Shown here: positions 5,385 through 63,924 of the stretch, piece after piece
Numbering within the stretch: position 1 is the stretch's first letter
Layout: every line of letters begins with the position of its first letter
Assembly: GCF_022808935.1 (NCBI RefSeq)
Contig: NZ_JAKZFR010000002.1
Coordinates: forward strand, 62,001 to 126,000
Source of the DNA: Geothrix sp. SG200
GTDB lineage: Bacteria > Acidobacteriota > Holophagae > Holophagales > Holophagaceae
Reading direction: 5' to 3'
Length of the DNA stretch: 64,000 nt
Notes under the pieces: model-generated
Seen by the model: only the letters and a program-made list of their open reading frames with translations
Told to the model about the DNA's origin: nothing
Databases searched by the model: none
Program-made: the position numbers and the translations under genes

Positions 5385-5460
5385 GCCACGGATGAACACG
5401 GATAGACACGGATGAAAGCCAGCGCGCCTGATCGGTGTTCATCTGCGGTCATCCGTGGCT
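5385..5460. repeat. Inverted-repeat element with 'cacggatgaa' words
   Basis: The left arm (5385-5416) is three tandem imperfect copies of a 10-11 bp word, cacggatgaa. The right arm (5431-5460) is the inverse complement, built from 'ttcatctgcgg' and 'tcatccgtgg'. The loop is about 14 bp. It lies between the convergent 3' ends of the aminopeptidase and CWC genes and overlaps the last codons of the CWC gene. It is one of seven similar intergenic elements in the window. Confidence 0.75.
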
Positions 5461-10338: not shown

Positions 10339-11877
10339 ATGAGCCCAGACACGGTCCAGCCTCCCCAGGATCTCCTCGAGCGCATCCTCACGGCCCTGGT
10401 CTACGACGTGGCCATCGAGTCGCCCCTGGAGGCGGCGCCTCGGCTGTCGGGCCGGGTGGGCTGCCCCGTGTGGCTGAAGCGCGAGGACCTCCAGCCCGTG
10501 TTCTCCTTCAAGCTCCGGGGCGCCTACAACAAGATCGCCCAGCTTGAGCCCTCGGAGCGGGCCAAGGGGGTCATCGCCGCCTCCGCGGGCAACCACGCGC
10601 AGGGCGTGGCCCTGGCCGCCCGGAAGCTGGGGTGCGAGGCAGTGATCGTCATGCCCGTGACCACGCCCCGCATCAAGGTGGATGCTGTGCGGCGCCTGGG
10701 CGCGGAGGTCGTCCTCCACGGGGACTCCTTCGACCAGGCCTACGCCCACTCCCAGACCCTCATGGCTGCCGAGGGCAAGGTCTACATCCACCCCTACGAC
10801 GATCCCGACGTGATTGCGGGCCAGGGCACCATCGGCCTGGAGCTGCTGCGCCAGATGCCCCGGGGGCTGCGGGCGGTGTTCGTGCCCGTGGGCGGCGGAG
10901 GCCTCATCGCCGGCATCGCCGCCTACCTCAAGCGCCTCCGGCCGGAGATCCGGATCATCGGCGTGGAGCCCGCGGACGCGGACGCCATGACCCGCTCCCT
11001 GGCAGCGGGCCACCGGGTGAAGCTGGAGCGGGTGGGCCTCTTCGCGGACGGCGTGGCCGTCAGCCAGGTGGGCGCCCTGCCCTTCGAGCTCTGCCGGCAG
11101 CACGTGGACGAGATGGTGCGGGTGGACACCGACGAGATCTGCGCCGCCATCAAGGATGTCTTCGAGGAGACCCGGTCCATCCTGGAGCCCTCCGGGGCCC
11201 TGGCCCTGGCGGGGCTCAAGGCCTGGGCGGCCCACCAGGGTGCGGATCCCGACGGGGGAAACCTGGTGGCGATCCTCTCCGGCGCCAATGCCAACTTCGA
11301 CACCCTCCGCTTCGTGGCCGAACAGGCTGAACTGGGCGAGAAGCGGGAGGCCATTCTCGCCGTCACCATCCCAGAGCGGCCCGGCAGCTTCAAAGCCTTC
11401 TGCGAGCTCATCGGCGCCCGGTCCGTCACCGAGTTCAACTACCGCCTGGCGGATCCGGACCGGGCCCACATCTTCGTGGGGCTGCAGGTGGCGGACCGCT
11501 CGGAGATCGAACCGCTGCTGGCGCGCCTGCGGGCCGAAGGCTTGGAGGCCCGGGACCTGAGCGACAACGACATGGCCAAGTTCCACGTGCGCCACATGGT
11601 GGGGGGCCGCGCGCCCTCGGCCACCCACGAGCGGCTCTACCGCTTCGAGTTCCCCGAGCGGCCCGGCGCCCTGCTCCGCTTCCTGGAGCGCATGAGCCGC
11701 GGCTGGAACATCTCCCTCTTTCACTACCGCAACCACGGCGCCGACTACGGCCGCGTCCTGGCCGGCATCCAGGTCCCCCCCGAAGATCAGGCCGCCTTCC
11801 AGGCCTTCCTGGACGGCCTGGGCTACCAGTTCGTGGATGAAGGGGAGAACCCGGCGTACCGGCTGTTTTTGGGCTGA
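10339..11877 (+). CDS. ilvA: Threonine ammonia-lyase (threonine deaminase), biosynthetic
   Basis: A 512-residue PLP enzyme converting threonine to 2-oxobutanoate, the first step of isoleucine synthesis. Catalytic Lys58 lies in VFSFKLRGAYNK, the Gly-rich phosphate loop GGGGLIAGIAAY near residue 184. Two ACT-like regulatory regions follow: ILAVTIPERPGSFKAFCEL (about 335) and YRFEFPERPGALLRFLERM (about 433). This two-module tail is the long, isoleucine-inhibited form. ATG follows AGGAG with 5 nt spacing. It is monocistronic here, preceded by its own attenuator, and its 3' end faces the nested repeat region. Confidence 0.96.
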   Translation: MSPDTVQPPQDLLERILTALVYDVAIESPLEAAPRLSGRVGCPVWLKREDLQPVFSFKLRGAYNKIAQLEPSERAKGVIAASAGNHAQGVALAARKLGCEAVIVMPVTTPRIKVDAVRRLGAEVVLHGDSFDQAYAHSQTLMAAEGKVYIHPYDDPDVIAGQGTIGLELLRQMPRGLRAVFVPVGGGGLIAGIAAYLKRLRPEIRIIGVEPADADAMTRSLAAGHRVKLERVGLFADGVAVSQVGALPFELCRQHVDEMVRVDTDEICAAIKDVFEETRSILEPSGALALAGLKAWAAHQGADPDGGNLVAILSGANANFDTLRFVAEQAELGEKREAILAVTIPERPGSFKAFCELIGARSVTEFNYRLADPDRAHIFVGLQVADRSEIEPLLARLRAEGLEARDLSDNDMAKFHVRHMVGGRAPSATHERLYRFEFPERPGALLRFLERMSRGWNISLFHYRNHGADYGRVLAGIQVPPEDQAAFQAFLDGLGYQFVDEGENPAYRLFLG

Positions 11878-11901
11878 GCCTGAGGTCTATCTCAATACGA
11901 A

Positions 11902-12285
11902 GAGGAAAGGATTCACCGCCAAGGGCACCAAGAATACTCCTACCTGATTATCGGGAAGAGTCACCCTGAAAGATCAAACCGCGAATAACGCGAATGGGCG
12001 CGAAACGCGGCGAGGATGGGCCGCCTGGGCCTTCGGCCCCCAGTCGCGCGGTGCGCGGCTGGCCACGCGCAGGGCGGGCATGCCAGCTCTTGAAGGCTGT
12101 CGGGCCCGCCCTGCGTGTAGAGGCGGAAGCTCGGTCGTTCGCCATTCGTGCGCCCGCAGGGCGATTCGCGTCATTCGCGGTTACCTGCTTTTCAGGCTGA
12201 GTGAGGCCGATAGCCCAGTACTCGTATTTTAAGTGTGCGTTTACAGCTCTTGGGTCCTTGGCGACTTGGCGGAGATCATTTTCTC
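11902..12285. repeat. Outer 'ccaag' inverted-repeat element carrying another element inside it
   Basis: This fills nearly the whole 430-bp gap between ilvA and rsmE. The left arm (11902-11934) contains gattcaccgccaagggcacc; the right arm (12248-12285) is its approximate inverse complement, tcttgggtccttggcgactt onward. Flanking bases also pair (gaggaaa and ttttctc). Between the arms lies a complete second element at 11961-12200. I see no gene in this region. Confidence 0.65.
11961..12200. repeat. Inner 'cgcgaat' inverted-repeat element
   Basis: The left arm (11961 to about 12005) runs cctgaaa, then accgcgaataacgcgaatgg and more. The right arm (about 12140-12200) is its inverse complement, gattcgcgtcattcgcggtt then ttttcagg. 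Word spacing is about 10 bp. The interior carries a 15-bp stem, acgcgcagggcgggc (12065-12079) with gcccgccctgcgtgt (12104-12118), one mismatch. It sits wholly within the element at 11902-12285. Confidence 0.7.
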
Positions 12286-12307
12286 AAACGTACGTTCTCA
12301 AGCCAGA

Positions 12308-13015
12308 TCAGAACAGCTTTCCCACCAGCGCCGCCAGGGCGGTCTCGGTGCGGAGGATGCGGGGGCCGAGGTCCAGGGGCTTCAGGCCGGCCTTGAGGAG
12401 GCTCTGCACTTCGGCCTCCACCCAGCCGCCCTCGGGGCCGATGGCGAGGGTGACGGGGGCCGCCAGCACCTTCGGCGCAGTGGCGCCGGTTCCGGGATGC
12501 GCCATGAGGCCCGTGCCGCCCGCCAGCAGATCGGGCAGCTCGTCCTCTACGAAGGGGCGGAAGAGCCGCGCCAAGCGCAACTCCGGCAGCACCGTGTCCT
12601 TGGCCTGCTCCAGGCCCAGGATCAGCTGCTCGCGCAGGTTCTCGGGCTTCATCCTGGGGCTGGCCCAGTAGGCCTTCTCCACCTTCCAGGCGTTGAGCAG
12701 CACGATCCGCGCCGCGCCCAGGCTGGCGGCGGCCGCCACCACGCGGTTCAGGACTTTGGGTCGAGGCACCGCGACGAGCAGGTTCAGCGGCAGCTTGGGC
12801 GGCGGCGCCTGGTCCAAGGTCAGCTCCAGCTCCAGGACCTCGCCGTCCAGGCGCAGCACCCGGCCCCGGCCCATCTTCCCGTTCAGCAGGCCCACGGCCA
12901 GCTCGGCGCCAACACCGGCACGATGGACCTCGCGGACATGGGCCAGGCGCCGACCCGCGAGGCGGGCCCGATCCGGGGCCACCATGTCCTCCGGCAGCAG
13001 CAGCACCAGGTTCAA
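12308..13015 (-). CDS. rsmE: 16S rRNA (uracil-1498-N3)-methyltransferase
   Basis: A 235-residue SPOUT-family methyltransferase that methylates U1498 of 16S rRNA with SAM. The C-terminal knot motif LAIGPEGGWVEAEV and the following LGPRILRTETA segment are diagnostic, and an N-terminal PUA-like part (RRLAHVREVHRAGVGAEL) is present. The likely start is TTG at 13013-13015, overlapping the TGA of the upstream acetyltransferase gene as TTGA; this gives the normal N-terminus MNLVLLLPEDM. An ATG ten codons later would truncate the domain. It is the last gene of a tfoX-like/GNAT/rsmE operon. Confidence 0.93.
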   Translation of the reverse strand: MNLVLLLPEDMVAPDRARLAGRRLAHVREVHRAGVGAELAVGLLNGKMGRGRVLRLDGEVLELELTLDQAPPPKLPLNLLVAVPRPKVLNRVVAAAASLGAARIVLLNAWKVEKAYWASPRMKPENLREQLILGLEQAKDTVLPELRLARLFRPFVEDELPDLLAGGTGLMAHPGTGATAPKVLAAPVTLAIGPEGGWVEAEVQSLLKAGLKPLDLGPRILRTETALAALVGKLF

Positions 13016-24792: not shown

Positions 24793-24863
24793 ACCGCAGA
24801 GAGCGCGGAGAACGCAGAGGGGCTCTTGTTCATTTCTCTGCGCTCTCGGCGTTCTCTGCGGTG
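24793..24863. repeat. Inverted-repeat element with 'cgcagagag' words
   Basis: The left arm (24793-24821) is three tandem 9-bp words, cgcagagag, cgcggagaa and cgcagaggg. The right arm (24834-24862) is the near-exact inverse complement. The loop is about 12 bp. It lies between the aldolase gene and mtnA, in a gap of 135 bp, and would form a long hairpin in any aldolase-mtnA transcript. Confidence 0.75.
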
Positions 24864-62789: not shown

Positions 62790-62920
62790 AAACCAAAAGA
62801 AAACCGCCAAGACACCAAGAAAAACCACGCTCCCGATTGGTGTGCCTCCGTCAGAAAGCACCAGAGAGGAGAGCACTCCCCGCCTTGGGAGCTTTTGCAG
62901 TTCTTGGTACCTTGGTGGGG
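62790..62920. repeat. Inverted-repeat element of the 'ccaag' type
   Basis: The left arm (62790-62826) contains aaccgccaagacaccaagaa; the right arm (62894-62920) holds gttcttggtaccttggtggg, its inverse complement. The loop is about 65 bp. The same words occur in the elements at 6740 and 11902. It lies in the 262-bp gap between the aqpZ start and the exonuclease 3' end; no gene is visible in the gap. Confidence 0.65.
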
Positions 62921-63815: not shown

Positions 63816-63924
63816 CAAAAGCCTCCACGAAGGGCACGAAGGGTATAGGCAAATCGCGAAGGCGAATTCGTGGCCTTTAGACTCGCCCGAAGGGCTTCTT
63901 CGTGTCCTTCGTGGAGCTCTTTTG
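63816..63924. repeat. Inverted-repeat element with 'cacgaag' words
   Basis: The left arm (63816-63844) reads caaaagcctccacgaagggc then acgaaggg; the right arm (63896-63924) is its inverse complement, ttcttcgtgtccttcgtgga then gctcttttg. The flanking caaaag/cttttg also pair, so the arms are about 29 bp. It fills the gap between the exonuclease start and the next gene's 3' end. Confidence 0.75.

Follow-up and report, generated by a model that had tools for sequence, protein, structure and literature searches.

Two nested palindromic elements between ilvA and rsmE of Geothrix sp. SG200 that look like gene-less relatives of GxxExxY elements

Two successive insertions of palindromic elements, the outer before the inner, probably produced the spacer between ilvA and rsmE in Geothrix sp. 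SG200, and both elements appear to be gene-less relatives of elements that carry GxxExxY genes. The stretch analyzed, here called the window, is 64 kb of contig NZ_JAKZFR010000002.1 (genome label G000), and the IlvA that it encodes is 91–94% identical to that of named Geothrix species. An ilvA-like threonine dehydratase gene (10339–11877, forward strand) converges with an rsmE-like gene (12308–13015, reverse strand), and the roughly 430 bp between them (11878–12307) hold an outer hairpin with ccaag arms around a larger palindrome with cgcgaat arms. The first-pass annotation had already described one element nested in another in this gap, close to the positions reported here, and this was confirmed both by the scores of the arms against shuffled sequence and by a motif scan.

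The left arm of the outer element lies at 11902–11932 (forward strand, CCGCCAAG GGCACCAAG) and its right arm at 12247–12285 (reverse strand, CCGCCAAG TCGCCAAG GACCCAAG), each recognized by alignment to the other and by the motif scan, and the right one also from its sequence. Alignment of 11902–11932 with 12257–12285 gave a score of 23, which was reached by 3 of 2000 dinucleotide shuffles, and an extra unit of the right arm is found at about 12247–12256. The left 17-mer has one further exact match (G000:C1:438781), which apparently falls within coding sequence and was attributed to chance. For the inner palindrome, 11961–11995 aligned with 12164–12200 at a score of 39 (0 of 2000 shuffles), and arm alignment and motif scan placed the cgcgaat arms at 11977–11995 (forward strand, CCGCGAAT AACGCGAAT) and 12164–12182 (reverse strand). 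Its GC-rich core stem occupies 12065–12118, where 12065–12091 and 12093–12118 align with a score of 27 that no dinucleotide shuffle attained. Comparison with known RNA families returned nothing near the gathering score for the element. Another ccaag-type hairpin is present in the window at 62804–62916; within its loop is a match to the external end of the inner unit (score 19.6), perhaps a remnant.

Copies of the inner unit in this genome have external ends like GGTTATCGGCCTGACTCAGCCAGAAAA in common, beyond the cgcgaat arms, so the unit in the window reaches from about 11942 to 12218 (about 277 bp). The interval first assigned to it, 11961–12200, thus holds a real element but is too short, and the junctions expected near 11960/12201 fall instead at about 11941/12219, some 20 bp off on each side. 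The left external terminal inverted repeat (11942–11972, forward strand) is common to other copies, and the right one (12187–12218, reverse strand) matches G000:C3:74189-74215 with 2 mismatches. Candidate target-site duplications flank the unit, TACTCCT at 11935–11941 and TACTCGT at 12219–12225, a 6 of 7 match that is weak alone.

The inner unit is a member of a dispersed family, with six further near-full copies and partial ones in this genome, some of them within other outer hairpins, and copies in other Geothrix genomes as well; five copies elsewhere are 79–89% identical to it over 206–279 bp. Thirteen aligned copies have a mean column identity of 86% and a common palindrome including the core stem, in which 10 of 70 pairs have changed in a compensatory way. 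Candidate duplications of 6–7 bp accompany the copies in the window and at sites L005 and L007 but are not evident at L002, L004 and L006. The flanks of the unit are complementary to each other in the window (p = 0.006) and at L003 (p = 0.001), L005 (p = 0.001), L006 (p = 0.003) and L004 (p = 0.04); no such complementarity was found within 110 bp at L002 or L007, nor around the copies examined from other genomes. The central loop (L002 and L208 compared with 12065–12118 of the window) stands in one orientation in some copies and in the opposite one in others, as though it had been flipped through the stem.

Relatives, represented by one genome per species and mostly by drafts, were read at the same junction. 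In six of them, G. terrae (G046), G. oryzisoli (G008), G. fuzhouensis (G004), G014, G015 and G018, the end of ilvA overlaps rsmE at CTAG, so the whole block between the two genes is inserted material, and this comparison shows the entire block to be an insertion relative to those six. Three differing arm elements occupy the junction in G. paludis (G009), G. fermentans (G003) and G. campi (G001). Every relative read here has either a gap of zero to a few bp or another element, and the ccaag outer element alone was seen in none of them. The comparison of gaps proposed in the first-pass annotation therefore bore out the insertion itself, with no gap in six relatives, while the ancestral gap carrying only the outer element was not among the relatives read. 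In G002 (L037), the gap is filled by an element that is unrelated to these, has inverted repeats at its termini and is flanked by TTAG on either side.

The order of insertion could be followed at sister loci. Five relatives were searched with the flanks of 16 sites of the SG200 genome, and 59 orthologous stretches were read from four of them. At L006, the acaggattaacaggat outer arms enclose the inner unit in SG200; in G. paludis the outer arms surround a short loop without it, and G. terrae has neither outer arms nor inner unit. At L007, likewise, the outer arms are present in G. paludis and the inner unit is absent, while SG200 has both, and the heptamer AAAGCCA, which occurs once in the uninserted G. 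paludis site, stands on both sides of the inner unit in SG200. L003 also has outer arms only in G. paludis and both elements in SG200. These comparisons show the outer element preceding the inner one at the three loci, and from the nesting together with these loci we infer the same order at ilvA–rsmE. The order of events proposed earlier is thus upheld at the three sister loci, with no outer-only relative at ilvA–rsmE itself. Discrete sequential insertion, as proposed for this class of elements, is well founded in the six gapless relatives, the dispersed copies and the three outer-only sites of G. paludis, and has been documented repeatedly among the sites compared.

Other sites gave a more varied picture. 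L004 is empty in four relatives, and L002, L008, L010 and L014 are common to SG200 and G. paludis. At L005, the outer arms and external ends are common to G. paludis (L174) and SG200, and the inner arms and core differ. Differing arms inside similar outer ends were found among relatives at both L005 and L010, for which simple cut-and-paste is no explanation.

The arms of the outer and inner elements follow the same grammar, inverted arms of CRCNRAK units every 8–10 bp. The motif C-CRCNRAK-n(1-3)-CRCNRAK, drawn up from the arm sequences, has 13 matches in the 64-kb window compared with 0.6 in shuffles, a count that is not fully independent since the window itself was one source of the motif. 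It marks all four outer and inner arms, the left ones on the plus and the right ones on the minus strand, and most matches in the window form such left-plus/right-minus pairs (5386–5458, 11916–12272, 11979–12180, 24794–24861 and 63825–63914). The independent genome-wide count, with fixed spacing, was 136 against 8 for the reversed control, some of the matches being chance matches in coding sequence. Within the first 100 matches listed, 23 of 25 pairs of close neighbors stood in plus–minus order.

The same grammar brackets GxxExxY genes. By inspection, each of the five GxxExxY genes of the SG200 genome is flanked by inverted arms or enclosed in an element of this kind. An arm score of at least 36 was found at GxxExxY loci in 28 of 30 scorable Geothrix cases and in 18 of 23 from other Acidobacteriota genera, with a threshold chosen after the first loci had been seen and arms detected in windows of 250–300 bp. 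In the controls, this score was reached at 1 of 29 ilvA loci, in 0.35% of random windows from the fetched Geothrix loci and in 0.05% of those from the present window. The association between arms and GxxExxY genes is thus directly observed. The arms keep a single grammar with letters specific to each element (cacagag, cgcgaat, cacgaag, caccaag and others), and GxxExxY genes with ccaag arms at L159 and with cgcgaat arms at L165 match the outer and inner types of the window. At L029 and L030, the GxxExxY gene with its arms is absent as a whole unit from all four relatives read. The L033 junction holds a GxxExxY element with cgcgaat arms in SG200, a different arm-only element in each of three relatives and nothing in a fourth relative (L278, L294, L307, L321), which reads as a spot reoccupied or as arms rewritten. 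In the GxxExxY copy at L033:1501-1845, the E of ExK is replaced by K, so that this copy may be a dead nuclease.

The GxxExxY protein corresponds to TIGR04256 and keeps the G-x-G-x-x-E-x-x-Y sequence and the D and ExK nuclease residues. Its structure model (pLDDT 97) is nearest to RecB/Cas4-type nucleases (LHK-Exo, SSO0001) at modest scores, and a sequence search for a solved relative gave nothing significant. No paper describing the arms or the role of the protein was found in the literature searched for GxxExxY, PF13366 and TIGR04256. The arm-only elements yielded no GxxExxY sequence, and the five genes of the genome lie outside the nested elements of the window. Because these elements hold no GxxExxY gene, they are termed gene-less relatives here, and they look like relatives of GxxExxY elements rather than full members. 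Since the arms of both fit the grammar that brackets GxxExxY genes in the phylum, this appears to be the simplest reading; common descent from, or dependence on, GxxExxY elements would follow from the likeness of the arms.

We suggest that an outer element of about 100 bp with ccaag arms would have inserted first, where the convergent ilvA and rsmE had overlapped. Later, the 277-bp unit with its external terminal inverted repeats, cgcgaat arms and GC-rich core would have entered the loop of the outer element, with an apparent duplication of about 7 bp. Mobilization may have occurred in trans, through a GxxExxY PD-(D/E)XK nuclease acting on arms extruded as a cruciform or hairpin. Searches around GxxExxY genes did not find pairs of the inner unit's external repeats, so that a separate transposase may move this unit.

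A plausible though on balance doubtful alternative is that the inner unit is simply a MITE, left over from an insertion sequence, non-autonomous and mobilized by the transposase of that sequence, with no tie to GxxExxY and with cgcgaat arms that are just part of its interior. Its external terminal inverted repeats, its length of about 277 bp and the candidate duplications in the window and at L005 and L007 would fit such an origin. However, a search of the SG200 genome for a longer element with the same ends returned five pattern matches, all of them in known copies, several copies have no evident target duplication, and the cgcgaat arms obey the grammar of GxxExxY arms. Transposition of REP/BIME-type repeats by a RAYT (Y1 tyrosine) transposase could also yield many copies of short intergenic palindromes, but it is scarcely credible here and largely refuted, given that the assembly (98% complete) has no Y1 transposase; the units are moreover far longer than REPs, with arms made of tandem 8–10 bp units.

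Selection rather than mobility might also account for the hairpins, as bidirectional terminators or RNA stabilizers of the convergent ilvA and rsmE. The stretch 11895–12290 folds as a strong hairpin (z = −6.9) at a convergent junction, and the compensatory changes indicate a maintained palindrome. Yet six relatives have no space for a hairpin there, the copies are dispersed and the other elements of the window are not limited to convergent junctions, which makes this origin improbable, although a later use of the element as a terminator is possible. Formation of the nesting in place, by slippage or hairpin-templated copying, draws on the tandem repeats of the arms, the differing arm sequences at the same junction among relatives (L033, L032, L010) and the two orientations of the central loop, but seems very improbable. 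Local slippage cannot yield the inner unit when copies 79–89% identical to it are dispersed in the genome and G. paludis lacks the unit at three shared sites while keeping the outer arms; on these two grounds slippage is refuted for that unit, as the first-pass annotation had argued, and it is possible that the arms themselves formed by slippage or templated copying. Two successive insertions of gene-less GxxExxY-element relatives accordingly remain our preferred account.

If palindromic mobile elements have GxxExxY genes as their coding component, an annotated family would gain a role, many unexplained intergenic hairpins would be accounted for, and a link to the 23S rRNA intervening sequences with S23p would emerge. 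Sites that are empty, outer-only or outer-plus-inner form a series of natural experiments on how such elements move. More tentatively, and with rather less than even confidence, we propose that GxxExxY genes together with their arms make up a class of small mobile elements not described before, which a minimal Cas4/RecB-like nuclease would spread by acting on cruciform or hairpin arms, with the many gene-less hairpins, including both nested here, as non-autonomous dependants and S23p/IVS elements as a sister class with a different protein and heptad arms.

Among known systems, REP, BIME and REPIN sequences with RAYT are likewise dispersed intergenic palindromes, whereas the elements of the window are much longer, have another arm structure and occur in a genome without Y1 transposase. 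MITEs resemble them in being short and palindromic, with terminal inverted repeats and, in some copies, candidate target duplications; the present elements differ in that no parent transposase was found in the SG200 genome, in their several palindrome layers and inconsistent target duplication, and in an arm family tied to a nuclease gene. Loci of GxxExxY proteins (TIGR04256/PF13366, PDDEXK_3) have arms of the same grammar, including the ccaag and cgcgaat types, but enclose the gene that the window elements are without. In the 23S rRNA intervening sequence of Coxiella burnetii, the S23p gene is preceded by heptameric repeats and the terminal stem measures 28 bp (PMC4990558). S23p (PF05635) genes in Geothrix (L322–L337) lie between inverted tandem-heptad arms (9 of 12 above threshold, 12 of 12 heptad-like by eye), with heptad repeats as in the Coxiella sequence (PMC4990558); the SG200 genome has no PF05635 gene. 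Such intervening sequences are likewise small, with complementary ends that form a long stem and an optional small ORF inside, whereas the elements of the window are intergenic, between ilvA and rsmE rather than in rRNA, their arms are built of CRCNRAK units rather than heptads, and the gene associated with such arms elsewhere is GxxExxY rather than S23p.
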